This document shows positions 10,478-39,954 of a DNA stretch of 40,429 bases, one piece after another (position 1 is the first letter of the stretch; each line of letters begins with the position of its first letter). The position numbers and the translations under genes were made by a program. A model generated the notes under the pieces. That model had not been told where the DNA came from and did no database searches. It saw nothing but the letters and a program-made list of their open reading frames with translations. Origin of the DNA: an uncultured Clostridia bacterium (GTDB lineage Bacteria; Bacillota; Clostridia; Oscillospirales; Acutalibacteraceae); contig CANARN010000015.1 of NCBI GenBank assembly GCA_947364045.1, forward strand, positions 1-40,429, read 5' to 3'.

Positions 10478-10522
10478 AAGTATTTCCTCCGATTTATTTA
10501 ATAATTTTAAACCTCGTTTGCA

Positions 10523-10596
10523 GTAGTGGCTGATGCCCACATCAGCCCGTGAATAATATCAAGACTTAACGGGACGATGTAGGCATCGTCCCCTAC
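10523..10596. repeat. Inverted REP pair (BIME-like) between mmsA and iolG
   Basis: The left REP reads GTAG (10523-10526), T, GGCTGATG, loop CCCA, CATCAGCC, then CG. The right REP is on the minus strand: GTAG (complement of 10593-10596), GGGACGATG, 4-base loop, CATCGTCCC, then G. Both GTAG tags face outward with 24 bases between the hairpins. Paired inverted REPs are the classic BIME layout. They lie inside the iol transcript and could act as mRNA stabilisers or attenuators. Confidence 0.72.
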
Positions 10597-10630
10597 AAAA
10601 CACAATGTAAAATTTCCGAGATTTGCGCGA

Positions 10631-10709
10631 ATTTTTTCATCAGACAAGGCTTGCGAGCGACGGCGTATGAAGATACTCCGAGCGAGCGTAACGCAGTCAG
10701 ACGGAAAAA
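10631..10709. repeat. Structured repeat family, copy A
   Basis: T-rich left arm (10631-10645) and A-rich right arm (10695-10709) are partly complementary. Between them is a core near 10654-10688 containing GGCGTATGAAGATACTCCG, with GTAT/ATAC forming a small hairpin. Related copies lie at 17161-17213, 28948-29020 and 40171-40229. Confidence 0.6.
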
Positions 10710-10718
10710 CAGCCAAAA

Positions 10719-12227
10719 TCAGATTGTGCCGTCCCATGTGGAAACATTAGTTGATGTGGCTTCTTCCTCGTCAAACCAGTGTGTTGTAACTGCCTTTGAC
10801 TCGGTGAAGAAACGGTATGCATCTTTGCCTAAGCAGTGTAAATCGCCGAAGAAGGACTGCTTGTGGCCTGAGAACGGGAAAAAGCCTACGGGTACGGGAA
10901 TACCTACGTTAATTCCGACCTGTCCGCCGTCTGTGTAGCGCGCAAACTGACGCGCAAAGTAGCCGCTCTGAGTGTAAATAACCGAACCGTTTGCATAGGG
11001 GTTATCGTTCATCATTTTAAGGCCTTCCTCAAAATTCTTGCAGCGCTTAATGCAAAGAACGGGTCCGAATACCTCATCTCTGCCGATTGTCATATCCTCT
11101 GTAACGTGATCAAAGATTGTAGGACCTACAAAATAGCCGTTTTCATAACCCTCAACAGTGCAGTTTCTGCCGTCAAGAATAAGCTCTGCGCCCTCAGCAA
11201 CGCCCTTGTCAATATCTGCAAGAACCTCTTTGTAATGCTTTTCGTATGTAATCGGACCGAGCTTTGAGGATTTATCCCAAGACGGACCTACTTTTATCTT
11301 TTCAGCCTGTTTTTTAAGCTCTGCAACGAACCTATCAGCAATTGCCTCTTCAACAACGCAAGCCGAAAGAGCCATACAACGCTGACCAGCACATCCGTAT
11401 GCTGAATTGATAACGCCTGCAACTGTTCTCTCCAATGCGCAATCAGACATAACAAGAGCGTGATTCTTTGCCTGACAAAGCGCCTGACAGCGTTTACCTG
11501 CCGCAGCAGCTCTCTGATAAATTTTAAGACCTACGGGTGTTGAGCCTACGAATGTAATACCCTTAACGTCAGGATGGTCAAGAATTGTGTTGATTTCGTT
11601 TCTTGAGCAGGTAACAATGTTGATAACACCGTCGGGAACGCCTGCTTCCTTGTAAATTTTTGCAAACATCATAGCTGTTTTCGGTGTAAGCGAAGCTGCT
11701 TTAAGCACCATTGTATTACCGCAGGCAATGCAGGTGGGAGCCATCCAGCCGAAAGGAATCATTGCAGGGAAGTTAACGGGAACAATACCTGCAAAAACAC
11801 CGAGAGGCTCACGGTATTTAACAGTGTCATAGCCGTTTGATGCGTCCATAATGCTCTCGCCCATCATAAGCGACGGAACCTGTGTTGCAAGCTCCGTACC
11901 CTCTTTAGCCTTGAGTACATCGCCCTCTGCTTCGCCCCAAACCTTGCCGTTTTCTTTGGCAACGCACATTGTAAGCTCTTCCATATTTTCAATGATAAGG
12001 TCACGGATTTTGTAAAGAATCTGCGCGCGCTTGATTGCGGGAACTGCTCTCCAACCCGGATACGCCGCTTTCGCCGCCGCAATAGCTTCGAGTACCTCAT
12101 CATTTGTGCAACAGGGCGCCTGACCTGTTACTTCACCTGTTGAAGGGTTGTGAAGGTCATACCAAGTGTCTGTTTTTGAGTCGCGGAATTCACCGTTGAC
12201 AAAATACTGTAATTTTTCAACTGCCAT
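10719..12227 (-). CDS. mmsA: Methylmalonate/malonate-semialdehyde dehydrogenase (acylating)
   Basis: A 502-aa CoA-acylating aldehyde dehydrogenase (IolA/MmsA), converting malonate semialdehyde from inositol breakdown to acetyl-CoA and CO2 with NAD and CoA. The nucleophile Cys is in GCAGQRCMALS, the NAD-binding block is FVGSTPVGLKIY, and EVFGPVLC closes the active site. One stretch normally written GGAKNH in the family reads CQAKNH here. The ATG follows AAAGGAG. It lies 30 bases downstream of iolE in the iol operon, which fixes the role better than similarity alone. Confidence 0.92.
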   Translation of the reverse strand: MAVEKLQYFVNGEFRDSKTDTWYDLHNPSTGEVTGQAPCCTNDEVLEAIAAAKAAYPGWRAVPAIKRAQILYKIRDLIIENMEELTMCVAKENGKVWGEAEGDVLKAKEGTELATQVPSLMMGESIMDASNGYDTVKYREPLGVFAGIVPVNFPAMIPFGWMAPTCIACGNTMVLKAASLTPKTAMMFAKIYKEAGVPDGVINIVTCSRNEINTILDHPDVKGITFVGSTPVGLKIYQRAAAAGKRCQALCQAKNHALVMSDCALERTVAGVINSAYGCAGQRCMALSACVVEEAIADRFVAELKKQAEKIKVGPSWDKSSKLGPITYEKHYKEVLADIDKGVAEGAELILDGRNCTVEGYENGYFVGPTIFDHVTEDMTIGRDEVFGPVLCIKRCKNFEEGLKMMNDNPYANGSVIYTQSGYFARQFARYTDGGQVGINVGIPVPVGFFPFSGHKQSFFGDLHCLGKDAYRFFTESKAVTTHWFDEEEATSTNVSTWDGTI

Positions 12228-12257
12228 TGTATTTTCTCCTTTTGGTCTGATTATTTA

Positions 12258-13154
12258 TTAAAGTCCTGAAACTTCGCTTATATATTTTCTTGCCTTGATT
12301 GCGTACTCAAGCGGATTTGCAATTGCAGGGTCTTGCTCTGCTTCTACCAAAACATAGCCCTCATACCCTGTTTCCTCTAAAACATCAAAAATCGGCTTAA
12401 AGTCAATTGCGCCGTCGCCGGGTACTGTAAAGGTGCCAAGCCTTACGCCCTGTAAAAAGCTCAAATGCTCGTCGCGAACTTTTTTGACCATTTCAGGACG
12501 GATATCCTTAAGGTGAACATGGTAAATTCTGTCGGCATACTTTTTAAGAACGGACATATAATCCTCACCGCAGTATGCAAGGTGACCTGAGTCGAAAAGA
12601 AGACCGAAAACCTCGGGGTCTGTGTTTGCCATAAGCCTGTCAATTTCAGCCTCAGTCTGAACAACAGTGCCCATATGGTGATGAAGGCAAAGCTTAATGC
12701 CCATATCCTTTGCAACCTTTCCGAGCTTATTGATGCCCGTGCAAAGCATATCCCACTCTTCGTCGTTCATTATGTACTTTTCTTCAAAAATTGACTTGTC
12801 AGTGCCCTGAATTGAATGGCCCTGCTCGGAAATTCCGACAACCTTTGCGCCCATCTCTTTAAGAAATGTAATATGCTCGATAAAATCCTTTTCAACCTCT
12901 TCATAAGGCTTTGTAATAAGAAATGATGAGAACCACGCATTGCAAATCTGCATATTGCGAAGGCTGAGTGCTTTTTTTAGCGCAGGAATGTCATTTCTCG
13001 GGTACTTGTTACCTACCTCACAGCCCGTGAAGCCTGCAAGAGCCATTTCGGAAATGCACTGCTCAAAGGTGTTTTCTGCGCCCAAATCGGGCATATCGTC
13101 ATTTGTCCATGCTATCGGCGCAATGCCGAGTTTAACTTTGTTTTTGTCTAACAT
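12258..13154 (-). CDS. iolE: Myo-inosose-2 dehydratase
   Basis: A 298-aa TIM-barrel protein of the AP-endonuclease-2/xylose-isomerase-like superfamily, the IolE type. It dehydrates scyllo-inosose to 3D-trihydroxycyclohexane-1,2-dione using a divalent metal. Visible blocks include [14 protein letters not shown] at the N-terminus, [34 protein letters not shown] and the C-terminal [10 protein letters not shown]. The length is normal. It begins one base after the iolD stop, so translation is coupled, and mmsA follows. Confidence 0.93.
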
Positions 13155-13155
13155 A

Positions 13156-15072
13156 TCAATATTTTCTCGCTTTCTCCTGATTTTCTTTTTTATTCAAATA
13201 AGCCTTTCTGACGGCTTCATTTTGCGATGTGCTTGCAACGCCTACGTTCCACCAAGCGCCGTAGCCGTCTGTCATCGATTTGGGCAGAACCTTAATGTCA
13301 ATAAGCGTTGAAACTGTCTGCTTCTGAGAATCAATAAGCGCCGCCTCAAGCTCTTCCATTGTTCTGGCAGTGTAGGTTTTAACGCCGTAACCGCTCGCCG
13401 CTTTTGCAAAATCAATGGGAACAAGGTCGCCCAAAAGATTGCCGTTTTCGTCACGGAAACGGAATTCTGTTGCAAGATTACCTATGCCGTTTGACATTTC
13501 AAGGTTGTTGATACAGCCAAAGCCGCTGTTGTCGAAGAGAAGAACATTGATTTTCTTCTTTTCCTGAATTGAAGTAATAAGCTCAGAGTGGAGCATTAAG
13601 TAGCTTCCGTCGCCGCACATTGCATACACTTCTTTTGAAGGGTCGGCAAGCTTTGAGCCGAATGCGCCTGCAATTTCATAGCCCATACAGGAGTAACCGT
13701 ATTCCATATTGTATGAATAAAGGCTGTCTGACGTCCACATTCTCTGTAAATCACCGGGGAGCGAGCCTGCCGCGCCGACACAAATTGCATCTTCCGGGAT
13801 AAGCTCACGAACCTTAGCCACAGCCGCAGTCTGAGTAATTGTACCCATTTTCTCGGCAAATTCGGGAATCGTTCTCTCATCTCTCGCTTTTATGAGCGGT
13901 TCAAAGTTTTCGTCATATTTATATTCAGCAAGACGTTTATATTCGTCTGCCCATTCCTTGCGTGCAGTTGCAATTTCAACCGTGTAGGCCGACTGGTATC
14001 CGTTCGCTCTGAGAATTTCGCCGAGAGCTAAAATACCGAGCTTTGCATCGCTGACTAATTTCACTGCGCCAAGCTTATATGCGTCAAAGCGCGATGTGTT
14101 AATTGTAAGCACCTTTGCATCTTTTCTGAACAGAGATTTTGAACCTGTTGTGAAATCGGAAAATCTTGTGCCGACGCCGAGAATGACATCCGCCTCTTTC
14201 GCAATTGCGTTGCCCGCGCTGTTACCTGTAACGCCGAGTCCGCCGAGGTTATATTCATTGCTTGAATGACACGCGGTTTTGCCCGACTGTGTTTCCGCAA
14301 ACGGAATATTAAATTCCTTGCAAAAAGCTTCAAGAGCCTCGCCTGCTTCGGAATATCTTACGCCGCCGCCGCAAATAACGAGCGGTTTTTTCGCTGTAAG
14401 AAGAATTTCCGCAATATCCTTAATCTCTTCGGGCGAAGGCGCAATTCTTGTAATTCTATGTACTCTTTTCTGTAAAAATTCATCGGGAAAATCATAGCTT
14501 TCGCCCTCAACGTCCTGCGGCATTGAAATGCACACGGCGCCTGTTTCGGCAGTGTCGGTAAGCACACGCATTGCATTAATCATAGCAGACATTAACTGTT
14601 CGGGACGGGATATTCTGTCCCAATATCTTGTGACTGCTTTATAAGCGTCATTGGTAGTTGTTGCAAGCGAATTTATCTGTTCAAACTGCTGAAGAACAGG
14701 GTCGGGCTGACGGGTCGAAAACGCATCCGCAGGAATAAGCAAAAGCGGAACATGGTTAACCGTTGCCGTTGCGGCGGCAGTTATCATATTTGCAGCTCCC
14801 GGTCCTATTGAAGAAGAGCAGGCAATAATCTTTCTGCGGTTATTCTGCTTTGCAAAGGATGCGGCGGCATGCGCCATACCCTGTTCGTTTTTACCCTGAT
14901 AAACAGTAAGACCGCCCCTTTCAGAGTCAAGCGCTTCGCCGAGACCGCAAACAATTCCGTGACCGAATATTGTGAAAATACCGTCAACGAATTTTGTTTC
15001 CTTACCGTCAAAGGACACATACTGATTGTCAAGAAATTTAACAAGAGCCTGTGCCGTTGTCATTATAGCCAT
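13156..15072 (-). CDS. iolD: 3D-(3,5/4)-trihydroxycyclohexane-1,2-dione hydrolase
   Basis: A 638-aa thiamine-diphosphate enzyme (acetolactate-synthase fold) that opens the inositol-derived ring to 5-deoxy-glucuronate. The N-terminal PYR domain contains the ThDP glutamate region ([17 protein letters not shown]). The central domain holds [10 protein letters not shown], and the C-terminal PP domain carries the GDG...N motif as MCGDGSYLM...LLFDNSG. The ATG follows GGAGG. It sits between iolB and iolE with 12- and 1-base gaps. Confidence 0.95.
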
Positions 15073-15084
15073 AAAAAAACCTCC

Positions 15085-15855
15085 TTATTTCTCGTCTAAA
15101 AGCCATTTATGCTCAGGCGCGTCAATACGGGTTTTAATCCACGGGTCGCCGTCTAAATGACGAATCATCCAGACATAACACATTTTATACCCGGGTGCCG
15201 CCGCCTGCTGATGAGTGTGCATAGGCGTAATGCAAAGGCATCCGCCGTCCCCTACCTTGTAGCAGTCGTCGCCGTTAAAGCCAACACCGAAGCCCTGCGG
15301 CTTTTCAAATTCATAATAATAAACCTCAGGCTGAGGGTGAAAATGCGGCGGATAACTGGTCCAGCAGCCCGGTTTATGAAAAACCTCGCCCAAAACCAAA
15401 TTTGAATAAGGCGCATTTTCATAATCAAAAACCGTTAAAACCTGCCTGTCAGCCGTGCCGTCCCATTGGTCTGCGCCGAAATGCTGAACGGTCATATCCT
15501 CGCCCTTATAGTAATGAACGCCGAACTCGTTATTGTTATCGGTCTGTTCAATTACAATTCTTGATTCTGCATTTGCTTTTACGGAAACCGTGTTTCCCTT
15601 TGCAAAGTGAATGGCAGTCGCTGTATCCTCAAAAGGACTGCGGCGCTTTGCATTTTCGGTTTTTCCGTCAAACATAAAGTCAACATCGCCCGCCATTAAA
15701 AGAATTGCGGTTTCATTTTCGCTTTCACAAAAGCTGATTTCTTCGCCCGCTTTCAGTATTTTAACCTTTATGTCCATTAACATATCGGCATTTTTACCGT
15801 TTCTTTCGCAAAGAATTTTCTCGTTGCTTTCATTGAAATTAGGATTATCATACAT
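15085..15855 (-). CDS. iolB: 5-deoxy-glucuronate isomerase
   Basis: A 256-aa bicupin (KduI/IolB family) that isomerises 5-deoxy-D-glucuronate to 2-deoxy-5-keto-D-gluconate. The C-terminal cupin shows the metal-binding cluster WTSYPPHFHPQPEVYYYEF and a later MHTHQQAAAPGYKMCYVW. The ATG at 15855 is preceded by AAGGTGATAAAT; the GTG of the longer frame at 15864 overlaps that site. It is followed by iolD and lies downstream of the SanA-like and RAYT genes, which separate it from iolC. Confidence 0.93.
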   Translation of the reverse strand: MYDNPNFNESNEKILCERNGKNADMLMDIKVKILKAGEEISFCESENETAILLMAGDVDFMFDGKTENAKRRSPFEDTATAIHFAKGNTVSVKANAESRIVIEQTDNNNEFGVHYYKGEDMTVQHFGADQWDGTADRQVLTVFDYENAPYSNLVLGEVFHKPGCWTSYPPHFHPQPEVYYYEFEKPQGFGVGFNGDDCYKVGDGGCLCITPMHTHQQAAAPGYKMCYVWMIRHLDGDPWIKTRIDAPEHKWLLDEK

Positions 15856-15896
15856 ATTTATCACCTTAAAATATTAAGTTTCAAATGGATTTACAA

Positions 15897-16586
15897 TTAA
15901 ACTTTTATTTTATCGTCAGTCACCGTTGCGTTTGCCGTTTTAATGGGAATTTCTTCTCCGAGATATGTGGGCTTCGGCTCTGCCATACACCAAAAGAAAT
16001 CCTTTACCCTTGCCGCCGCCTCACGAATATCATTTTTTACCGAGTACACTTTTTCCTCTCTGTCATATCCGTAAGCGTCAATTCCCAGCTTACGCGCATT
16101 ATAAACAGCGCGGTACAAATGATACTTTTGAGTTACAATAAGCGTTTTTTCTACCTTAAAAGCATCACGCGCCCGGTACATTGTTTCATAAGTGGAAAAG
16201 CCTGCATGGTCAAGAAAAACGCTGTCTTTATCTACGCCTTTTTGCGTTATATAATCCTTCATTGCATTGACCTCATCGTAATCCTTACGTCCGTGGTCGC
16301 CTGACATTAAAAATTTTGTACTGCACCCTGCTTCATACGCTTCAAGGGCAAAATCCAATCGCTCTTTGAGCATAGGCGACGGTTCGCCGTCCCAAAGACC
16401 CGCGCCGAGAACCGTTATACAGTCAAAGCTGTAATTTTCCAAATCGTCCGCCTCAATAAGATAATCGCTGACATAAGAAATCATATAAGCGTTTATGCCT
16501 ATTACAGCTCCTGCGCACAAAAAACCTACACAAAGAACAAAAATTACAAATATTTTAAATATTTTGTTTTTAAACAGTTTTTTCAT
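15897..16586 (-). CDS. SanA/YdcF-like DUF218 membrane protein
   Basis: A 229-aa protein with one N-terminal TM anchor (about residues 10-33) and an extracytoplasmic DUF218 domain: ITVLGAGLWDGEPSPMLKERLDFALE, MSGDHGRKDYDEVNAM, STYETMYRARDAF and VTQKYHLYRAVYNARKLG. Relatives (SanA, YdcF, ElyC) influence envelope integrity or carry undecaprenyl-related functions, but no reaction is proven for this group. AGCGGAG-type spacing is weak but CGGAG precedes the ATG. It lies within the iol cluster yet has no known link to inositol; with the RAYT upstream it looks like an insertion. Confidence 0.85.
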   Translation of the reverse strand: MKKLFKNKIFKIFVIFVLCVGFLCAGAVIGINAYMISYVSDYLIEADDLENYSFDCITVLGAGLWDGEPSPMLKERLDFALEAYEAGCSTKFLMSGDHGRKDYDEVNAMKDYITQKGVDKDSVFLDHAGFSTYETMYRARDAFKVEKTLIVTQKYHLYRAVYNARKLGIDAYGYDREEKVYSVKNDIREAAARVKDFFWCMAEPKPTYLGEEIPIKTANATVTDDKIKV

Positions 16587-16597
16587 AGTGTCTCCGA

Positions 16598-17131
16598 TTA
16601 TTTATAATATTCGTCATTTTGCCATTTACGTAAATTTTCGTCAATGTATCGCCAAACCTCTATATATCCCTCTTCATTTGTTATAACTCTGTCATAAAAT
16701 GAATTTTGAAATATCTGCCTACCTGTACATTTTGTGATTATATTACAGCTTCGTGTGGTTAAAGATTTATACGCGCAAATTATATCCGACAGAGTAGGGC
16801 GGGGGCTTGCTCCCGCCGAGCTGTCCAAAATAATTATTGCGTGAATATGATTCGGCATTATTACGAATTTATCAATTTTTACAAAATCATATCGCTTTTC
16901 CAACGCAAACAACTGATCTTCTGCAATTTGACCGTAAACAGAAAGAGATAATACGGAATCTTGATATTGTCTCTCGGCGGGAGCAAGCCCCCGCCCTACA
17001 TTATGAGTGATATTCCCGAAAAAGCATTGCATATTTTTACAGCACAGCGTAACAAAATAATAGCCGTTTGAACTGTAATCAAAATTTTTTAATCTCGGAT
17101 GCCTTCGCTTTGGCAATTCATTATTTTTCAT
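16598..17131 (-). CDS. REP-associated tyrosine transposase (RAYT, Y1_Tnp)
   Basis: A 177-aa single-strand transposase of the IS200/IS605 Y1 type, RAYT branch. The N-terminal block RRHPRLKNFDYSSNGYYFVT is typical. The HUH motif is H95-I-H97 in VIMPNHIHAIII, and the conserved C-terminal blocks are FYDRVI and WRYIDENLRKW. RAYTs nick and rejoin DNA at REP palindromes and are usually not self-mobile. Two perfect inverted copies of a GTAG-tagged REP lie inside the reading frame, encoding GRGLAPA (about residues 46-52) and AGASPRPT (about 106-113) as loops on either side of the HUH motif. Its ribosome site is weak. It has no transposon ends that I can define. Confidence 0.88.
   Translation of the reverse strand: MKNNELPKRRHPRLKNFDYSSNGYYFVTLCCKNMQCFFGNITHNVGRGLAPAERQYQDSVLSLSVYGQIAEDQLFALEKRYDFVKIDKFVIMPNHIHAIIILDSSAGASPRPTLSDIICAYKSLTTRSCNIITKCTGRQIFQNSFYDRVITNEEGYIEVWRYIDENLRKWQNDEYYK
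16794..16820 (+). repeat. REP inside the RAYT gene, copy 1
   Basis: GTAG (16794-16797) followed by GGCGGG, loop region, CCCGCC (16812-16817) and GAG. It is an exact inverted copy of 16973-16999 over 27 bases. Translated on the minus strand it gives part of AGASPRPT, directly after the HUH strand. Confidence 0.85.
16973..16999 (-). repeat. REP inside the RAYT gene, copy 2
   Basis: On the minus strand this is GTAG (complement of 16996-16999), then the same GGCGGG...CCCGCC palindrome and GAG, identical to copy 1. It encodes the N-terminal loop GRGLAPAE. The two tags face outward, as in the pair at 10523-10596. Confidence 0.85.
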
Positions 17132-17160
17132 ATTTATAATTGTTGATGTTTCCGCAGTGT

Positions 17161-17213
17161 GCGTTTTCTCGCTATTCGAAGTGTATGCAGATTCACAAGT
17201 GACGGCAAAAAAC
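17161..17213. repeat. Structured repeat family, copy D
   Basis: GCGTTTTCTCGC at the left and GCAAAAAACG at the right are partly complementary. The core CGAAGTGTATGCAGATTCAC aligns with copy C (40171-40229) across most of its length. It fills the gap between iolC and the RAYT gene. Confidence 0.5.
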
Positions 17214-17237
17214 GTGCAATACGCGTGCTGAATGAAA

Positions 17238-18254
17238 TTATTCCCTTGCTATCATTTCGCCGTATTCTGCCTTTTCGTCTGCAATGAACTTTTTAACAGC
17301 TTCCGCTGAAGGCATATCCTGCGAGCAAGCGTGAGAAGCAACAAGCATTGCGGCTGAAGCAGAGCCGAATTCAAGCGCGTCAATAATTTCAAAGCCCTCA
17401 AAAAGACCGTAAAGGAAAGCGCTGGCGTAGCCGTCACCGCCGCCGAAGGATTTAAGCAGCTTTACGGGGAACGGCTTAATGTTATAGCTTTCACCGTCAT
17501 TTGTGTAAGCGGTTGAGCCTTCCTTGCCGTGCTTGATAACTACGATTTTTGCATTCTGCGAATGCCAATAGGCAGCAGTTTCCTTATCGCTCATACCCGG
17601 CTTTATAAGCTTTTCGGTAAGGTCATATTCCTCACGTGAGCCGAGAATAATGTCAGCCTCTCTTGCCACATAAGAATAATAAATCGAAATTTCATCATCA
17701 TTTTTCCAGTTATATGCACGGTAGTCAATGTCAAAAATAACGGGAATATTATTGCGTTTTGCGAGCATTACAGCCTTGAGAGCTGCCTCTCTTGACGGAC
17801 TTTCGCAAAGAGCAGTACCCGAAATGAGAATTGCCTTGCCCCTCTTAATGTACTCCTCGTCAACATCAGAAACCTCTAATTTCAGGTCTGCTGCTTCGTT
17901 ACGGTACATTACAATTGAGCTTTCTGTTTCGGATTTAATTTCGGTAAATGTAAGACCGATTTTTTCACCATTTTCGCATTTTTTGATGTTTGAGATGTCA
18001 ATGCCCTCATTCTCAAAGAAATCGGTTACGAATTTACCGAGCTGGTCGTCTGAAACACGGGCAATAAAGCCGACTTTTTTACCGAGTCTTGCAAGACCCA
18101 CCGCAATATTAGCGGGCGAGCCGCCAAGGTATCTTTTAAAGGTTGTGCTCTCATTCAGCGGGCAGTAGTAATCAACAGGGTTAAGGTCAACCGCAACCCT
18201 GCCCAAAAGTATTAAATCAAACTCCTTTGAATTGTCAAATTCAATGTATTTCAT
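17238..18254 (-). CDS. iolC: 5-dehydro-2-deoxygluconokinase
   Basis: A 338-aa PfkB/ribokinase-family sugar kinase phosphorylating 2-deoxy-5-keto-gluconate at C6. The N-terminal signature is GGSPANIAVGLARLGKKVGFI near residue 40, and the catalytic aspartate with anion hole is in GGGDGYASAFLYGL near residue 275. The name rests on the operon: the upstream aldolase gene ends 14 bases before, and iolB, iolD, iolE and mmsA follow beyond the RAYT/SanA insertion. The start follows AAAGGAG. Confidence 0.92.
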   Translation of the reverse strand: MKYIEFDNSKEFDLILLGRVAVDLNPVDYYCPLNESTTFKRYLGGSPANIAVGLARLGKKVGFIARVSDDQLGKFVTDFFENEGIDISNIKKCENGEKIGLTFTEIKSETESSIVMYRNEAADLKLEVSDVDEEYIKRGKAILISGTALCESPSREAALKAVMLAKRNNIPVIFDIDYRAYNWKNDDEISIYYSYVAREADIILGSREEYDLTEKLIKPGMSDKETAAYWHSQNAKIVVIKHGKEGSTAYTNDGESYNIKPFPVKLLKSFGGGDGYASAFLYGLFEGFEIIDALEFGSASAAMLVASHACSQDMPSAEAVKKFIADEKAEYGEMIARE

Positions 18255-18268
18255 CGGTATAATCTCCT

Positions 18269-19108
18269 TTAATCTATGAAACTGAATACTTTTATATGGC
18301 GTTTTACGTTTTCGTAAACTCCCTCAGCCTCTGCCTTGGAAAGGTCAAAATAATTTACCTGTTCGTGAGTATCACAATAGCTCTTTGCGGCATTTGCCAG
18401 ACAGTTGAATGAGGCTGTCGCAATGTTGACCTTGCGGATACCGAGCATAATAGCCTGACGGAACATTTCGTCTGTTATGCCCGAGCCGCCGTGAAGCACA
18501 AGGGGCGTGTCAACAGTCTTGTTAATATCATCAAGAACGTCAAAGCGAAGCGACGGCAAAACTGGATAATTGCCGTGTGCATTGCCGATTGCCACAGCCA
18601 AAGCGTCCACACCTGTTTCGTCGCAGAAAATTTTGGCGTCGTCAGGGTTGGTGCATAGGATTTCGTGCTGTTTACCCTCGCCCTCGTTACCGCCGACAAC
18701 ACCAAGCTCCGCCTCAGTTGTAGCGCCGTATTTTGCGGCCTCGGCACATACTCTTTTTACCTCCTGAATGTTCTTTTCAAGCGGCAGAAGAGAGCCGTCA
18801 AACATAACCGAGGTAAATCCAAGCTCAAGCGCTTTCTGCACGGTTTCAAATTTAAGTCCGTGGTCAAGATGAACGGCTATTGGCACCTTAGCATTTTTTG
18901 CGGCAGAAACCATCATGGGACCCATAAGCTCCAGCGGTGAATTTTTAAGACGAACCTCAGCAATTTGAAGAATTATAGGCGTATTAAGCTCCTCTGCGGC
19001 GGCAACCGCACCCATAATCATTTCCATATTGCCGACCGAAAAAGCGCCTATTGCAATATTCCTTTCCTCCGCTTCAGAAAGCAGAGTTTTCATCGGTACA
19101 ATCGGCAT
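18269..19108 (-). CDS. iolJ: Class II aldolase, probable 6-phospho-5-dehydro-2-deoxygluconate aldolase
   Basis: A 279-aa zinc-dependent class II aldolase (FbaA/GatY/IolJ family). Zinc and catalytic blocks are AVHLDHGLKFETVQ, FTSVMFDGS, EAELGVVGGNEGEG, NAHGNY and LVLHGGSG. Paralogues cleave fructose-1,6- or tagatose-1,6-bisphosphate, and sequence alone does not separate them reliably. Being first in the iol operon, just before iolC, argues for cleavage of the IolC product to malonate semialdehyde and DHAP. A GGGAGG site precedes the ATG by nine bases. Confidence 0.85.
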   Translation of the reverse strand: MPIVPMKTLLSEAEERNIAIGAFSVGNMEMIMGAVAAAEELNTPIILQIAEVRLKNSPLELMGPMMVSAAKNAKVPIAVHLDHGLKFETVQKALELGFTSVMFDGSLLPLEKNIQEVKRVCAEAAKYGATTEAELGVVGGNEGEGKQHEILCTNPDDAKIFCDETGVDALAVAIGNAHGNYPVLPSLRFDVLDDINKTVDTPLVLHGGSGITDEMFRQAIMLGIRKVNIATASFNCLANAAKSYCDTHEQVNYFDLSKAEAEGVYENVKRHIKVFSFID

Positions 19109-20031: not shown

Positions 20032-21273
20032 TCAGATGTTTTTCTTTTTGGGAAAACGGCTGATAATATCATTAACTTCATTTTGAACAAATATAAATAC
20101 CTTTTCGTTTTCCGTTTGCTGTACGTGAGTTAAAAAAGCATCTAAACTTTTATCATTCAAGAGCGCATAACAGAGAATACATCTGCGCACCGTGTCAAGA
20201 CCGAATTCCCGATAAATTCGGTTATAAAAGCGAAAGCCTAGCATATGGCGATTAGGGATTTCAGGGTCGGTGTTATCAAATTTACGGTTGGTGCAAAGCT
20301 TTTCCCAATATTTTTCGCTGAATTTCTCATATTCTTTTCGATGCTTTTCAAAAGAATTTTTATCATGGTAAAAGCGGTAAATTTCAGCACTCCATTCTGC
20401 CCCGCCCTCATCCAAAAAGCCTTCTGCCGTAAAATTGTCACTTATATTCCATATATGACCGAGTTCATGAGGAATATAAGATTCACACACTTTCGGTAAT
20501 TTTTGAAAATTTTCGTAAACTGTAAGGCTATCGCACACATACGCATTGACATTATGCGTAAAACCGAGAGATACAAGCTGAAAATTTCCATGTGCCGGTT
20601 TATCTACGTACAGGTTACTGTTATACCAGTCAAGCACCTCATTGTTAGTTCTTACAATAGCTTGCGCATACTCATATTCGCTTTTTTTCTGCGTTATTGC
20701 ACGGAATTGACCGCATTTGGTTATATAACAACTGTCCTTTCGCAATGCGTAAATCAGACAGCGATTTGATTTAAGCGGTTGAATTATATGTGAATTGCCC
20801 TGTTTCTCTGCGAACAGGACTTCGTAACCGTCTAAGCCGTATACAGTCAACGGCTCATATCTGCACTGAATAAAATGCCTTCCGATGCGCTCTGTATCAT
20901 CAGGATAAGCAAGATAGGGATAAAAGCGAATGTAATTATCATATAAAAAAATACGCTTATCCTCAAAAAAATTATATCGGTCGCTGCTTTTTCTTTTTGA
21001 CCAGTGGCGTTTAAATTTTTTGACACTTGCAAACTCAATTTCAAATTGTTTAGTGTCAATTTCCTTTATTGCATAGCAAGATTGTTTACCGACTGTGCTT
21101 CTGTCAGGATATTTTTCAAAGCTGACATTTTTGCCGTCACCATCTGTCATTTTTGTAATGCAAAATCTATCATCCAAAATAAAAAACGGAACTGTTTTTG
21201 AATCAAGGAAATATTGAATTTTTCCGTAAAGTGTGCAATTGCTGAAATGTATTTCCATAATTGCGCGGTTCAT
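20032..21273 (-). CDS. M1-like HExxH metalloprotein (gluzincin), function unknown
   Basis: A 413-aa cytoplasmic protein (no signal peptide). The zinc motif is H269-E-L-G-H273, followed by FLDEGGAEW, where E289 is the likely third ligand. This resembles the M1 aminopeptidase pair HExxH...WLNEG, but the spacing between second His and Glu is 15 residues instead of 18. The M1 substrate signature GAMEN is not visible. The first 240 residues look like beta-rich substrate-sheath sequence of no family I can name. The ATG has an AGAGGAG site. It stands alone, with the DUF5058 pair upstream on the same strand and two peptidases nearby. Confidence 0.7.
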   Translation of the reverse strand: MNRAIMEIHFSNCTLYGKIQYFLDSKTVPFFILDDRFCITKMTDGDGKNVSFEKYPDRSTVGKQSCYAIKEIDTKQFEIEFASVKKFKRHWSKRKSSDRYNFFEDKRIFLYDNYIRFYPYLAYPDDTERIGRHFIQCRYEPLTVYGLDGYEVLFAEKQGNSHIIQPLKSNRCLIYALRKDSCYITKCGQFRAITQKKSEYEYAQAIVRTNNEVLDWYNSNLYVDKPAHGNFQLVSLGFTHNVNAYVCDSLTVYENFQKLPKVCESYIPHELGHIWNISDNFTAEGFLDEGGAEWSAEIYRFYHDKNSFEKHRKEYEKFSEKYWEKLCTNRKFDNTDPEIPNRHMLGFRFYNRIYREFGLDTVRRCILCYALLNDKSLDAFLTHVQQTENEKVFIFVQNEVNDIISRFPKKKNI

Positions 21274-26746: not shown

Positions 26747-28138
26747 TTATTTCAAATCTGCCTTTCCGTGAAGATATACGTTAAGATAAATAACATCGAA
26801 AGCGTCAACTGCTCCGTCACCGTTCAAATCGGAACGGCGCAGAAAATTTTCTCCGACTCCCCTACAGTCACATTTTACTACATTTAATAAATAGATATAA
26901 TCCTCTTCGGTTATTTTTCCGTCGCCGTTAACGTCACCGTTTACGGTCGCGGTCTTATCATTTATTAAAACCTGCAAATAAATTATATCAAAGGCATCGG
27001 TTGCACCGTCCAAATTCAAATCCGCAGCCAATTCTTCATATTTCGTCATTTTTCGGGAACAGGTAACCGAAGCGCGATAAATTGCATAATCATTAGGCGT
27101 TAAAGAGCCGTCAAAATCCATATCGCCGAGCATAATATCATCTAAATCGACAAATACAAAACCGTTTTCATTCGCAAAGTTTTCGGCAAAAGAGCCGCCG
27201 AAGCCGTAAATCACCGAGCTTTTTCCGCTGAATGCGTCAATGTCAATTCTTGTAACCGACCGCGGAATATAAACATTTTTCGTTCCGATTGCGCCGCTTG
27301 AAATGAAGGTTATACCGTCACATACAATAAGCTCAGCACAATTATTTTTTGAAGCCACCGCGCGCGTGCCGATTGTCAGAAAATCGCCTTTCCAATTCTC
27401 ACGATTATTATAAATTCCCGAATTTAAAAATGCATCCCTGCAAATTCTACAGTTATCGTTAATGCTGATTTTTGTAAGTGATGCGCAATCCTTAAATGCT
27501 TCGGCGCCTACCGTAACGGTTTTTGAGGACAGTGTACATTCCTTCAGCTTATCCTGTCCGCTGAAAGCTCCGTCTGCAATGACCGTTGTACTGCTTCTTA
27601 CTGCATATGTCCCCTCAACAATACACCTGACAAGCACTGTGCCGAGGTAAAGATATTCAAGACGGGTTGCTTTAATAAATTCCCACGGGATTGTGTCCTG
27701 CCCTCCGCCTATTGTTATGCCGCCTGAACCGCCTAAATTTGCAGGTCTTATTGTCCAGTTTGATTTATTGTTGTAATAAGATGTTCCGAAAACAGCATTT
27801 TCACCGAAGTGCGTTAAAGACTCAGGCAAGCTTATTTCCGCCAAATTACTGCACGAATTAAACGCGTTATCCCTGATTTCACAAATTCCGTCTGCGACAG
27901 TTACTGAGGTAAGATATTCATTTCCGCTGAATGCTCCCTCACCTATTGCAAAAACAGGATAACCGCCCAGCGTATTCGGAACGGAAAGAGATGCCGTTTT
28001 ACCGGAATAGCCGGTTATTACAGCTTTCCCGTTCTCAATAATATATGTGTAGCTTCCGCCGGCAAAAGAAAAAGCAGGGCAAGAGCAAATGTATATAACT
28101 GCAATTACAGACAAAAATACAGAAAGTATTTTTTTCAC
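26747..28138 (-). CDS. Secreted leucine-rich-repeat protein with two tandem dockerins
   Basis: A 463-aa protein starting with GTG after AGGGGAGATAA. Residues 1-26 are a Sec signal peptide (basic start, hydrophobic core, AFSFA end). Residues about 30-315 are BspA-type leucine-rich repeats (IGEGAFSGNEYLTSVTVADG, AFNSCSNLAEISLPESL, GAEAFKDCASLTKI). The C-terminus has two type I dockerin modules, each with two calcium-loop F-hands: residues about 338-393 (GDMDFDGSLT, ADLNLDGATD) and 401-456 (GDVNGDGKIT, SDLNGDGAVD). Dockerins bind cohesins, so the protein may dock onto a cellulosome-like scaffold or surface. No cohesin gene is in the window. It directly precedes pepD. Confidence 0.9.
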   Translation of the reverse strand: MKKILSVFLSVIAVIYICSCPAFSFAGGSYTYIIENGKAVITGYSGKTASLSVPNTLGGYPVFAIGEGAFSGNEYLTSVTVADGICEIRDNAFNSCSNLAEISLPESLTHFGENAVFGTSYYNNKSNWTIRPANLGGSGGITIGGGQDTIPWEFIKATRLEYLYLGTVLVRCIVEGTYAVRSSTTVIADGAFSGQDKLKECTLSSKTVTVGAEAFKDCASLTKISINDNCRICRDAFLNSGIYNNRENWKGDFLTIGTRAVASKNNCAELIVCDGITFISSGAIGTKNVYIPRSVTRIDIDAFSGKSSVIYGFGGSFAENFANENGFVFVDLDDIMLGDMDFDGSLTPNDYAIYRASVTCSRKMTKYEELAADLNLDGATDAFDIIYLQVLINDKTATVNGDVNGDGKITEEDYIYLLNVVKCDCRGVGENFLRRSDLNGDGAVDAFDVIYLNVYLHGKADLK

Positions 28139-34670: not shown

Positions 34671-35426
34671 TTATATCTGATTTTTACGGTATTTCTCTGT
34701 TATTTCTAAAATTTCGTCCGTCGGTGTACCGTCCGACGTTTGCATTAAAAGCGGTTTTTCAACGATAAGTCCGGATTTTCCGCCTTTTCTTCCGTCAATA
34801 AGCACCAGCCACGGAGCCGTTTCGCCGTTCTTTTGCACAAAACGTATTTTTTTCGGCTCAATACCGTTTTTACGCATCGAATAAAGCGCGTCAAATATTC
34901 TCTCAGGGCGGTGGCAAATACACAGTCTTCCGCCGAACCGCAGAATTCTTGCGGCGCATTCTGTTATATCGTCAATATTGCAGGCAGTTTCATGACGCGC
35001 GATTTTTGCGCTTTCGCTTTCGTTTTTTATTCCCGCATTTTCCGCTTTGTACGGCGGATTCATTGTGACAACATCAAAATATTCACGCTGAGGAATTAGA
35101 TTTTTATCCTTCAAATCGCCTTCAAACAAATTTAATGACAAGTCATTATTAAGCTTCTGAGATTTTCTGAACTGCTCGCAGGCATTGCCCTGTATTTCTG
35201 CTGCGGCTCTGTACTTTTGAGCCTTGTTGTCCCGAAGCCACAAAAAAGGTATTATTCCGCAGCCCGTTCCCAAATCAATCGCCTTATCGCCTGATTTCAC
35301 ATTTGCAAAGCTGTTAAGCAGCAGCGCGTCTGTGCCGAAGGTATGTGTTTTTGAAACCAACAGACAGACGTTTTCTCCCAAATCTTCAATATGCTCGCCG
35401 TCCGAAAGTACAATATCAGTCAACAT
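34671..35426 (-). CDS. tRNA1(Val) (adenine37-N6)-methyltransferase-like protein
   Basis: A 251-aa Rossmann-fold methyltransferase of the TrmN6/YfiC type. The SAM motif is AIDLGTGCGIIPFLW near residue 40 and the amino-methyltransferase catalytic motif is NPPY (MNPPYKAENAG). I chose the ATG at 35426, with GAGG upstream, over the one at 35432. The start overlaps the end of mgtC by 11 bases, so translation is coupled. Substrate is by family; other N6-adenine targets cannot be excluded. Confidence 0.88.
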   Translation of the reverse strand: MLTDIVLSDGEHIEDLGENVCLLVSKTHTFGTDALLLNSFANVKSGDKAIDLGTGCGIIPFLWLRDNKAQKYRAAAEIQGNACEQFRKSQKLNNDLSLNLFEGDLKDKNLIPQREYFDVVTMNPPYKAENAGIKNESESAKIARHETACNIDDITECAARILRFGGRLCICHRPERIFDALYSMRKNGIEPKKIRFVQKNGETAPWLVLIDGRKGGKSGLIVEKPLLMQTSDGTPTDEILEITEKYRKNQI

Positions 35427-36153
35427 AAACATCCTCTACGCCGTCAAGCTCTTTAAGAGCAGAAATTATTTTGGAAAGGACCTTATTATTCTTCGGAAAT
35501 GCCAGAATTTTAATAACGGAATTATTTTTCTTATGCTTATATTTTTTATCAGCGCTCGTAGTATATACAATTTCCGCGGAATGTATGGGTGAATTGAATT
35601 TATCCTTTATAAGCGATGTAATTGCAGGAAGAGTCTCCTCAATACTCTCGACCTCAACGTAAATGGTTTTGCCGACAGAACCGTTGATAACAAAATGCTT
35701 AAGTGAATTCAAGGTAAAGTAAATGACTATTGTTGCGACAAGAGCACCTGTTGTATAACCGCCGCCCACAGCCGTGCCTATGCACGCAACTGCCCAAAGT
35801 GACGCCGCCGTTGTAAGACCCTTAACAGAAAAGCCCTCACGGAGAATTGTACCTGCGCCGAGAAAGCCTATGCCTGTAATAACCGCCGCGCTCATTCTTG
35901 AAACATCGAGAGACAAATTCAGCGAGGTTTCGCTCATATGCACCGCCGTAAGCATTACAAGGGTTGAGCCTATCGCTACAAGAATGTGTGTTCTGAAGCC
36001 GGCAGGTCTGTGTGAATGCTCACGTTCATAGCCGATAATTCCGCTGAGAAGAGCCGCCAGCATAATTTTAAACAAAGCGTCAACAGTTTCTCTTACGGGG
36101 TCTATTCCCCAAAGCCACAGAGCCGCGTCCTTAACCGTATTCAAAAAATCCAT
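35416..36153 (-). CDS. mgtC: MgtC/SapB-family membrane protein
   Basis: A 245-aa inner-membrane protein. The MgtC core has about four to five TM helices and the family signature GYEREHSHRPAGFRTHILVA (near residue 41), then TGIGFLGAGTILREG and VKGLTTAASLWAVACIG. The C-terminal 90 residues are a cytoplasmic ACT-like domain (TIYVEVESIEETLPAITSLI). In pathogens MgtC modulates ATP synthase and magnesium or phosphate homeostasis; in a commensal the role is open. AGGGGAG precedes the ATG. It lies between the degenerate ATPase and the methyltransferase. Confidence 0.92.
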   Translation of the reverse strand: MDFLNTVKDAALWLWGIDPVRETVDALFKIMLAALLSGIIGYEREHSHRPAGFRTHILVAIGSTLVMLTAVHMSETSLNLSLDVSRMSAAVITGIGFLGAGTILREGFSVKGLTTAASLWAVACIGTAVGGGYTTGALVATIVIYFTLNSLKHFVINGSVGKTIYVEVESIEETLPAITSLIKDKFNSPIHSAEIVYTTSADKKYKHKKNNSVIKILAFPKNNKVLSKIISALKELDGVEDVYVD

Positions 36154-36213: not shown

Positions 36214-39066
36214 TTATTTTATCCTTTTATTCGGCTTTTTGATTGCAGGAAGAAAATAAAGCACTATACCCCAAATTAACTGATAAAAAATTATCTGCCA
36301 GACTGAAATCTGACTTATTGCAGACATAAAGCTGAGCGCCGCTACAAGCAGCACGCCTATAACCGCCGCAATCTGCTGTACCGTTCTTGAAACATTTACA
36401 AACTGAGTTATTCTAAATGATAAATGCAGCGCTTTAAGCATGGTAATAACTCTGCCGTCATGAATTATGAGCGCATCGCTGCGTTCTTTTTCTTCATTTT
36501 TTATCTTAGTAAACATTTCCCCTGCAACCGGATTTATAATTTTAACTACATTTTTAGGAAGTCCGAATTCGCTTTCAAGAAAGCTTTCGGTAATATTGGC
36601 GTCTGACGTTCTGAAAAGAATGGATACTCCGTCCCTTTCAAGAGCGCGTATATAATGCGCCGTCATTTCGTCCGCCTTATAAACAACAATGAACATAGCG
36701 GCAATTTTACCCTCAATTGCAAGGTAAAGCGTGTTTTTCCCCGCTGCTTTGAATTTTTCCTCAAGACTGTCATCGGGCAATTCAACATTATGATGTCTTA
36801 AAAGCTCTTTATTGCCGACAAGCACCCTGTGATTATGAATCCAGCAGGAGCATCCGAGTTTTTCTTCATAAGCCAATGTTTCAACAGGAAGTAAAAGCTC
36901 TCTTTTTCCCTCAATTACACCGTCGAAAATTTCCGAAAGCACGCCGCCGGAAGCAATAACCACCGAAGCCGTATAAAGCAATGCCTCGTCAATTCTCATT
37001 TTGTGATAAAGCTTAATTCCCTCAATATTACAGCCGCCGCTCTTAAAGGCGTCTGCGGAATCAATGATTATTCCGTTTGAATTTACTGCATTTTCAACCG
37101 CTGAATACCCGTTAATTACCGTACCGCTGTCCCGAAGCATTTTATTGGCGCGGGAAAGGTTTGCCGCTGAAATAATTCCTGCCGCAGACGGAACAGACAT
37201 TAACAGCGCCGCCGAAAGCGAAGAAATACCTGCAAGTATATCCTTTTGTATAACAAGCGTTACAATTCCGATTATTAATGAAACCGCCGTAACGCCTAAA
37301 AGCGAATATTTTAAAATTGACGCCGTAATGTCGGCTTCCTTTGAAAGCTCAACAAAGCGTGACGGGAAGCCTATTTTTGCCGAATATTTTATTTCAGGCT
37401 CACCAAGCATCAGCCCTCTTGCAATTTCAGCCGCCTCTGCTTCATCTTCAATATTTTCAACAGTGTAATAACCGTTTTCGGAATTTGATACCGTTAAAAA
37501 ATTTTCAAGGTCGTTTCGGCAGACAATCAGCTCTCCCGCCGCCTTAAAAATCATCGGAACTACAGCCGCGGCAGTAAACAAATGCACCGACGATTCAACG
37601 GAATCCGCAAAGCCGAAAGCAAAAGCTGTCTGCAAAATTCCTGCAAGCGCGGCAATGACTACCGCGAGGTCAAGATTTAATTTGAAATTTTTAAGCGTTT
37701 CTTTAAACGATTTATAATTTATTATACAGCAGATTATAAGCAGTAAAAGCTGTATTGCAATGTAAACTCCGCTTTCGCCGCCGAAAGCGTCAAAGCTGCC
37801 TCTGCCTGACGCCGCAACCGCAGAAATAATTACCATCACAGCGCAAATAACCGACAAAACAGACAGTCTTGCTGTAATCTTACGCTTTTCGTGCAAAAAC
37901 TCATCTGTAACCGCATCTGCATCCTTCGGACCGAAAAATTCGCGTTTTATACGGTTATTTCTATGCTCATAACGGTTTTTCCGATACCCGTCCTTTTCCC
38001 TGTCGACGTCCGTTTCTTCATTATCCTGCTTAAATATTACATTGTCTACAAAATCCTTGACAACCTCTTTACGCGTTTCCAGAAGCATTGCTTCTGCCTC
38101 TTCCTCGGTTGTACTTTCAATTTTTTCTATATCCTTAAAGCCGTCAAGCATAATCTGCCCGTCTGACACCTCTTCGGAATGCGAATATATCTCGCCCTGA
38201 AGCTCAGACACGGCAGGAACTATTGTAGGTATAGGCTCGATTCCGTCGGTATTAACAGAGGCATATTTACTTTTCTTTACAATAATTCCGGGCGTTTCAA
38301 GCGTTTTCGCAGGGAGAGATGAAATTAAATCCCTGTGTTCCTGAGTTTTTTCAAGATTTTGAACGGGCTTGTTCATAAAATGCTTTCTGTATTTTTCCTC
38401 ACCCATAACAGGAGTTGAAACAGCCTCTCCCTCGCCCTTTGTTGTGCGAACTACCTTATTTCCAAGATTATGAGAAATATTCGGATTATATTCTCCGTGT
38501 ATTTTAACCTCATTGAACATTCTTGTTTTTTCTATTGAAATCTGACCGCTGACAGAAGGCGCCGACTCTTCTTTTTCTTCAACGGCTGCGGCTTCTTCGG
38601 CAGAGCTTATTTCCTCTCCGCCGACCTGCAATTCCATTTGACCGTCCGCCGCTTCGGAAACACTGACATTTTCACTGTCTTCTCCGGACAAATTTCCGCC
38701 AAAGGAATTTGACTTTTTAATTGACTCCAAAAATCCCGAAGCCCGTTTTTTACGTTTTTGAGCATACTGAGCAAACGATACCGAAAGCTCTTCTTCTGTT
38801 TCGTCAGGCTCTGATAAATCAACGGCTTTTTCTTCCTGCTCCGCCGCCTTTTCCGTTTGCTCGGGAACAATTTTCTCTGCCGAAATTTCAGGGACTTTAA
38901 CGGCTTCGCCCTGCTCTTTTTCTTCTGCAAACTCGGTTATTCCCAAAGAGAGAAGTAAATCATCGACATCATTTGCCGAAAATTCAGGAATTTTTTCATC
39001 TGATGAATATTTCTTAGTTGATTCAAGAATATCGTCAATAAGCGATTCGGGTATTCTGTCCGCCAT
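36214..39066 (-). CDS. Degenerate P-type ATPase homologue with long acidic N-terminus
   Basis: A 950-aa protein from the ATG at 39066 (the longer frame starts with TTG). Residues 1-390 are polar, Glu/Ser-rich and without a fold I recognise. From about 395 there are some eight TM helices and soluble parts laid out like a P1B-type ATPase: four helices, a shrunken A-domain region, two helices with LLMSVPSAAGI in place of CPC, then IIIDSADAF where DKTGT should be (Asp kept, KTGT lost, about residue 669). N-domain similarity remains in HNHRVLVGNKELL; SILFRTSDANITES replaces the TGDN region, and the GDGINDxP hinge is gone. TGES is absent. ATP-driven transport therefore looks impossible. It sits between rlmB and mgtC. 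Confidence 0.75.
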   Translation of the reverse strand: MADRIPESLIDDILESTKKYSSDEKIPEFSANDVDDLLLSLGITEFAEEKEQGEAVKVPEISAEKIVPEQTEKAAEQEEKAVDLSEPDETEEELSVSFAQYAQKRKKRASGFLESIKKSNSFGGNLSGEDSENVSVSEAADGQMELQVGGEEISSAEEAAAVEEKEESAPSVSGQISIEKTRMFNEVKIHGEYNPNISHNLGNKVVRTTKGEGEAVSTPVMGEEKYRKHFMNKPVQNLEKTQEHRDLISSLPAKTLETPGIIVKKSKYASVNTDGIEPIPTIVPAVSELQGEIYSHSEEVSDGQIMLDGFKDIEKIESTTEEEAEAMLLETRKEVVKDFVDNVIFKQDNEETDVDREKDGYRKNRYEHRNNRIKREFFGPKDADAVTDEFLHEKRKITARLSVLSVICAVMVIISAVAASGRGSFDAFGGESGVYIAIQLLLLIICCIINYKSFKETLKNFKLNLDLAVVIAALAGILQTAFAFGFADSVESSVHLFTAAAVVPMIFKAAGELIVCRNDLENFLTVSNSENGYYTVENIEDEAEAAEIARGLMLGEPEIKYSAKIGFPSRFVELSKEADITASILKYSLLGVTAVSLIIGIVTLVIQKDILAGISSLSAALLMSVPSAAGIISAANLSRANKMLRDSGTVINGYSAVENAVNSNGIIIDSADAFKSGGCNIEGIKLYHKMRIDEALLYTASVVIASGGVLSEIFDGVIEGKRELLLPVETLAYEEKLGCSCWIHNHRVLVGNKELLRHHNVELPDDSLEEKFKAAGKNTLYLAIEGKIAAMFIVVYKADEMTAHYIRALERDGVSILFRTSDANITESFLESEFGLPKNVVKIINPVAGEMFTKIKNEEKERSDALIIHDGRVITMLKALHLSFRITQFVNVSRTVQQIAAVIGVLLVAALSFMSAISQISVWQIIFYQLIWGIVLYFLPAIKKPNKRIK

Positions 39067-39186: not shown

Positions 39187-39954
39187 TTATCTTTTATATG
39201 CAAATTCGTACATAAGCACTCCGCCTGCTACCGAAGCGTTAAGCGAATTGATTTTGCCCTTCATTTTAAGCGATATAATAAAATCACATTTTTCACGGAC
39301 AATCCTGCTGAGTCCGTCGCCCTCCGAACCGATTACCAAAACCGCCGCGCCCGATGTGTCAACCTCTCGCGCGTCCTCTCCGTCCATATCCGCTCCGTAA
39401 ATCCAAAGCCCCTGCTTTTTCAGTTCCTCAAGCGTTGCCGCAAGATTCGGAACACGCGCCACTTTCATATATTCAAGAGCGCCTGCGCTTGTTTTGCCCA
39501 CTGTGTAATTAAGCGACGCGCTGCGCCTTTTCGGAATAATTATTCCGTGTACGCCGGCCGCCTCGGCAGTACGTATTATTGCGCCTAAATTATGCGGGTC
39601 TTCAATTCCGTCGCAAGCGACAATAAACGGAGCCTCTCCCCGTTCGCGCGCTGTTTCAAGAATTTCCTCAACCGTGGAATATTCATGCGCCGCGCAGGTT
39701 GCGGCAACTCCCTGATGATTTGCATGTCCGCACATAAAGTCCAATTTTTTACGGTCAACATCCTTTACCACTGCGCCCGTTTCTTTACATTCGGCAATAA
39801 TTTTGCCTATTATTCCGCCCGTCTCGCCCCGAACAACAAACAGAGTGTCAATTTCTCTGCCTGACTTTAAAAGCTCTGTTACTGCATTTCTGCCTATGAT
39901 TAAATCCTTCTGCCGTTCTTCAGCAAATTTGTCTGCGCGTTTTTCTTTATCCAT
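39187..39954 (-). CDS. rlmB: 23S rRNA (guanosine2251-2'-O)-methyltransferase
   Basis: A 255-aa SPOUT (TrmH-family) methyltransferase. The N-terminal substrate-binding domain starts LIIGRNAVTELLKSG, and the three SPOUT motifs are present: DPHNLGAIIRTAEAAG, VIGSEGDGLS and SLNASVAGGVLMYE. GGAG precedes the ATG. It is the first gene of the minus-strand string and has a clear promoter with a palindrome in its spacer. Confidence 0.95.
   Translation of the reverse strand: MDKEKRADKFAEERQKDLIIGRNAVTELLKSGREIDTLFVVRGETGGIIGKIIAECKETGAVVKDVDRKKLDFMCGHANHQGVAATCAAHEYSTVEEILETARERGEAPFIVACDGIEDPHNLGAIIRTAEAAGVHGIIIPKRRSASLNYTVGKTSAGALEYMKVARVPNLAATLEELKKQGLWIYGADMDGEDAREVDTSGAAVLVIGSEGDGLSRIVREKCDFIISLKMKGKINSLNASVAGGVLMYEFAYKR

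Follow-up and report, generated by a model that had tools for sequence, protein, structure and literature searches.

Kinases and proteases include well-known pseudoenzymes. Among proteins of P-type ATPase architecture, the human TMEM94/ERMA offers a debated case: in one report, no ATPase activity was detected and AMPPCP was bound (PMC12134183), whereas another describes an active endoplasmic reticulum Mg ATPase (PMC13322241), so that its status is disputed. Apicomplexan guanylate cyclases contain a P4-ATPase-like domain (PMC6592433, PMC7858053), and one of these two papers reports that ATPase domain activity is essential. Literature searches on pseudoenzyme or dead P-type ATPases found no bacterial family. 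The present analysis concerns a contig of an uncultured Clostridia bacterium (CANARN010000015.1; "the window" denotes the whole stretch of 40,429 nucleotides) and one gene on it, hereafter the pseudo-P1B-ATPase gene. The initial annotation regarded it as a P-type ATPase pseudoenzyme with a layout matching no described family; the alignments described below confirm the loss of motifs, and neither family models at their cut-offs nor the literature provided a described counterpart. The gene encodes a catalytically dead P1B-type relative that has lost its phosphorylation, dephosphorylation and metal-coordination motifs, and its family is under purifying selection.

The open reading frame (ORF), correctly read as intact in the initial annotation, is open over 950 codons from an ATG, with an alternative TTG start possible 10 codons 5' of it. 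Two other genes of the source genome have an E1-E2 ATPase domain; one of them (L001) encodes a real P1B ATPase with CPC, TGE, DKTGT, TGDN, GDGIND and SEHL (not SEHP), and it served as reference. Aligned to this reference, the window gene reads VPS for CPC, LGE at the TGE position, DSADA for DKTGT and TSDA for TGDN, and GDGIND is absent. The A-domain stretch comprises 77 residues versus 136 in the reference, and the segment between TGD and M5 comprises 72 versus 103 (31 shorter), which indicates that the hinge region was deleted, beyond mere mutation. Ninety loci retrieved from near genomes form the set behind the counts out of 90 given below. DKTGT, CPC, TGES, SEHP and GDGxND are each found in 0/90, and relatives with restored DKTGT or TGES, which might have marked the window copy as a merely local degenerate gene, are thus lacking from this set. 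The letters TGE occur somewhere in the sequence in 33/90 and at the aligned columns in 1/90, and the first CPC position is Cys in four. One of 45 loci, from a Boseongicola metagenome-assembled genome (MAG; L167), encodes a real pump with CPC, DKTGT, SEHP and GDGIND and was excluded before alignment.

The predicted structure places P-type A-, P- and N-domains on the eight helices of a P1B ATPase, and the protein accordingly belongs to this fold and homology family. A sequence search of PDB matched residues 592-856 to the copper efflux ATPase 3rfu (E 4.2e-10). The window protein has no P-type match in Pfam, PF00122 (E1-E2_ATPase) not being among the matches up to E 1; this model reaches E 0.0054 in one of 31 family members, without attaining its gathering cut-off. 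Two NCBIfam models of CopA-like or heavy-metal ATPases score far under their curated cut-offs (NF007952, 39.4 bits, cut-off 1316; TIGR01525, 34.0 bits, cut-off 346.25).

The family extends through nearly an entire order, which we take to be Oscillospirales from the names of relatives (MAGs, among them Candidatus Fimenecus, Ruminococcaceae UBA7217 and Oscillospiraceae). A protein search of 98 near genomes at E 0.001 gave a match in 95, some merely through real P1B ATPases. The gene itself was seen in 94/98 (the 90 loci, three more and a truncated start in G085). Five genomes lacked a usable match in the first search: rlmB lies near a contig end in two (G043, G063), no rlmB scores above the cut-off in two others (G083, G091), and the fifth (G085) has an ORF start bearing the tail motif behind rlmB. 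In G380, neither rlmB above the cut-off nor the pseudo-P1B-ATPase gene was found. With a family profile at E 1e-38, a wider draw recovered 233/247 genomes of the order, representing 130/134 genera; nine of the 14 missed belong to f13 and f14, where the listed matches weaken to 1e-39. Among 293 genomes of the class, with at most four candidates scored per genome, 14 of 15 members of the order match across much or all of the domain, and in the 278 from outside the order the matches listed are confined to roughly positions 188-492, with E values of 2.5e-35 or weaker. Only two matches were obtained in 199 genomes of the phylum, both within the order (kinship being given for 22 of the 199). In viral contigs, no relative was found; a phage origin was rejected, as none of six pattern matches encodes one.

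Selection on the gene is evident from the ratio of nonsynonymous to synonymous substitution rates (dN/dS), and the initial judgment that it is maintained rather than decaying is borne out by body values of about 0.1. Comparing the window gene with four relatives gives a dN/dS of 0.098-0.115 (body) and 0.147-0.164 (tail); dS exceeds 1.2 in these comparisons and is near saturation. The pair L005/L006 gives 0.096 and 0.214, and the closer pair L005/L007 (dS ~0.37) 0.082 and 0.172, respectively. The neighboring genes show 0.039-0.059 (rlmB) and 0.063-0.088 (mgtC). Among 31 family members, the membrane helices have a mean pairwise identity of 0.226 and the N-domain one of 0.433, versus 0.597 and 0.406 among 29 canonical P1B ATPases; the canonical set is less diverse, and what is compared is how the regions rank within each set rather than absolute values. 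This inversion indicates that constraint has moved from the transport path to the head.

The N-terminal tail, described initially as acidic and probably disordered, is classed as disordered by charge-hydropathy in 82 of 83 N-termini longer than 60 residues (median D+E 22.5%), and predicted local distance difference test (pLDDT) values agree: in the full-length AlphaFold model, mean pLDDT is below 60 in 31 of 38 ten-residue blocks of residues 1-380. The modeled tail contains short helices at residues 7-21, 31-40, 90-116 and 321-342. Lengths ahead of the first membrane helix were measured in 85 of the 90 members (the other five are partial, split or masked); the median is 356, with 77 above 200 and three at or below 74. 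Two members of family f10 (L062, L068) are nearly tailless, with ORFs of about 545 codons, so the tail is not obligatory. A pattern for the first helix, [LIVMFY][DEN][DE][IL][LI], matches 48 of 87 N-termini (three of the 90 omitted), versus 2.2 expected from shuffles; not all of the 48 have the FSxDDIL form, and the figure is no probability, given the kinship among the genomes. By group, it matches 26/35 N-termini within the genus and 22/52 outside. In 14 genomes searched at the DNA level with two stricter patterns, 11 places fall in the pseudo-P1B-ATPase gene (some repeated) and three elsewhere. The first pattern hits eight places, seven in this gene, and its reversal one; the second hits six, four in this gene and two within other proteins, and its reversal two. 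Neither pattern is matched in the genome that the window comes from. A docking peptide common to other proteins was rejected, since 11 of the 14 strict-pattern places lie in the gene itself. Further along the tail, the GQISIEKTRMFNEV block has the genus form GQISIEKTRxFNEV, whose T-x-x-F could be a phosphothreonine site for a kinase or FHA domain. The block is conserved within the genus; beyond it, the Thr-x-x-Phe patterns tried matched two of the members searched, and the idea was set aside.

That a gene resembling a copper pump is kept without its pumping parts suggests reuse of the pump body for another purpose, probably as a protein that binds or signals while anchored in the membrane. We favor, with moderate confidence, the reading that these order-wide P1B-type relatives form a non-catalytic family built of an anchor body, a binding head and a docking tail. 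The eight-helix body would serve as a non-transporting membrane anchor, the rebuilt N/P-domain head, where G738, G751, Y796, D822 and N824 are conserved, would be the working part that binds a protein or small ligand, and in many members a short helical peptide of the FS[LIV]DDILxE type in the disordered tail may dock a partner, making the whole protein a membrane-tethered sensor or assembly hub. The sensor or scaffold proposed initially is an inference, but the inverted conservation pattern favors it over transport. A bolder version, in which a pan-order pseudo-P-type ATPase that moves no ions forms a core membrane hub of Oscillospirales, its head reading a ligand or partner and its tail docking, is put forward only tentatively.

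Several observations weigh against the favored reading. The phospho position is still Asp in 56/90 relatives and the TGD Asp (D822) persists in 87/90, which leaves room for some remnant ligand or Mg chemistry. Relative L038 alone has TGE at the aligned columns, followed by Ala. The tail motif goes unmatched by the pattern in 39/87 N-termini which, together with the three tails of at most 74 residues, means that docking by the tail cannot be universal. The lower diversity of the canonical set, stated above, also counts here.

Among the alternatives, a nucleotide sensor fares best, although it is unlikely. The N-domain would bind, but not hydrolyze, ATP, ADP or a dinucleotide and would relay a shape change to a partner. 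This domain is the best conserved part of the family, with the second Gly of GxG retained in 89/90 and G751 in 90/90. However, the usual adenine contacts are lost: the Glu column of SEH(P) holds Glu in 2/90 and Gly in 56, the His column His in 0/90 and Gly in 57, and the first GxG Gly remains in 14/90. A precedent would be TMEM94, which is P-type-like and bound AMPPCP with no ATPase activity found (PMC12134183).

It is quite improbable that the protein is still a transporter or channel, with a passive or otherwise energized ion path regulated by the head. The eight-helix P1B topology is retained, as is the M4 proline (80/90), but conservation is lowest in the membrane helices, the opposite of real P1B ATPases, and CPC is absent from all 90. 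Moreover, of the 18 columns conserved at ≥80%, which include G738 (89/90), G751, Y796 (87/89), D822 (87/89), N824 (81/89) and W932 (81/89), the membrane helices hold only P626 and W932.

A role in translation, with the rlmB pairing reflecting a shared function such as membrane tethering of ribosome maturation, is very improbable. In its favor, 82 of the 87 loci testable among the 90, the window being included through its own ORFs, have rlmB as the immediate upstream neighbor on the same strand, as do 3/3 further loci. The five exceptions comprise N letters, a contig edge, a split gene and two real cases (L056, L084), in which the gene is located apart from rlmB and which speak against such a role. 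In addition, canonical copA occupies the same slot in another order, so the pairing could simply have been inherited and carry no meaning. An apparent fusion of RlmB with the pseudoATPase in L007 and L124 is an artifact of N letters in the record. The rlmB-ATPase-mgtC order envisaged initially thus holds in its rlmB part; the mgtC linkage is limited to the genus (31/36 genus loci versus 1/51 others), and the proposed partnership with MgtC was rejected.

The slot behind rlmB also bears on origin. In 30 rlmB loci outside the order, chosen by score, no match to the family profile occurs within about 1.5 kb downstream. A fully canonical copA lies at most 10 bases behind rlmB in three of 20 further places, hand-chosen partly for a P1B match on the same contig, and all three belong to family f40. 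In the order of f40, 5 of 13 loci tested (16 genomes) have canonical copA behind rlmB, and all five copA genes carry CPC, TGE, DKTGT, SEHP, TGDN and GDGIND. In L212-L214 and L232-L236, loci of this kind from another order of the class, canonical copA thus fills the slot directly behind rlmB that is held here by the dead relative. This linkage suggests an origin of the dead gene from a copper pump linked to rlmB. When 16 family members and 26 real P1B ATPases were placed in one tree, a branch with 100/100 support separated the family, subject to a long-branch warning. With the same long branches, the approximately unbiased (AU) test gives p 0.138 for the f40 rlmB-linked copA as sister and 0.088 and 0.13 for two other sisters. 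The family is possibly derived from an f40-type rlmB-linked copA, which is attractive from gene order.

That the gene is a local degenerate copy heading to loss has a negligible probability: the catalytic motifs are gone and two of 90 relatives are split (L042, 4164-6560, by an in-frame stop; L082, 5221-7448, by a frameshift; sequencing error or real), but order-wide presence and a body dN/dS of about 0.1 refute it for the family as a whole.

Table 1. Features of the pseudo-P1B-ATPase gene and its neighbors, in window coordinates.
Feature	Coordinates	Strand	Basis
Pseudo-P1B-ATPase gene, 950 amino acids: disordered acidic tail and pseudo-P1B-ATPase body	36214..39066	-	ORF, predicted model
N-terminal tail, acidic, mostly disordered (residues 1-380)	37927..39066	-	pLDDT, charge-hydropathy
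Short helix with SLIDDIL (residues 7-21); FS[LIV]DDILxE form in other families	39004..39048	-	
Second short helix (residues 31-40), aligning with genus WSLxEIDALL	38947..38976	-	
GQISIEKTRMFNEV block (residues 174-187), nearly invariant within genus	38506..38547	-	20 full-length sequences
Membrane helices MA, MB, M1, M2 (about residues 393-527)	37486..37890	-	structure model
Shrunken A-domain without TGES (residues 529-579)	37330..37482	-	alignment, model
VPS replacing CPC, in M4	37186..37194	-	alignment
DSADA replacing DKTGT	37048..37062	-	alignment
N-domain (residues 682-797), best conserved part of the family	36676..37023	-	
TSDANIT replacing TGDN, including Asp822	36589..36609	-	alignment
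M5 and M6 helices (about residues 886-942), after P-domain without GDGxND	36241..36411	-	model, alignment
rlmB, upstream neighbor conserved across the order	39187..39954	-	
mgtC, downstream neighbor confined to the genus	35416..36153	-	

Elsewhere in the window, positions 9470-19108 hold a cluster of oxidoreductase, aldehyde dehydrogenase, thiamine pyrophosphate enzyme, pfkB kinase and aldolase genes that, by Pfam names, resembles inositol catabolism. A single protein at 26747-28138 combines BspA-type leucine-rich repeats with a type I dockerin, and an ORF of 413 amino acids at 20032-21273 has no Pfam match at E 1e-5.

Present in almost an entire order of gut bacteria, with annotation limited to weak CopA-like scores, the family is probably an important membrane protein in a major group of the gut flora, and loose homology searches could mistake it for a copper exporter. 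It also offers a natural experiment in how a P-type architecture can be used after pumping is abandoned. On the bolder version given above, this would be, to our knowledge, the first pseudoenzyme family among bacterial P-type ATPases.

With the P1B copper ATPases CopA, ATP7B and HMA4, the family shares the predicted fold, the helix order MA-MB-M1 to M6, the A/P/N layout and detectable homology. Unlike them, it lacks CPC, TGES, DKTGT and GDGxND, its A- and P-domains are shortened, its conservation pattern is inverted, and the window protein begins with a long acidic tail without a Pfam metal-binding domain. The apicomplexan guanylate cyclases likewise join a P-type-like body to a signaling part, but they are eukaryotic, of the P4 class and fused to a cyclase (PMC6592433, PMC7858053). 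TMEM94 is the nearest functional likeness: according to its report (PMC12134183), it has P-type architecture with A/P/N-like domains and no TGES, whereas it is eukaryotic, has ten helices and stands nearest to SPCA; the two are likened by function only.
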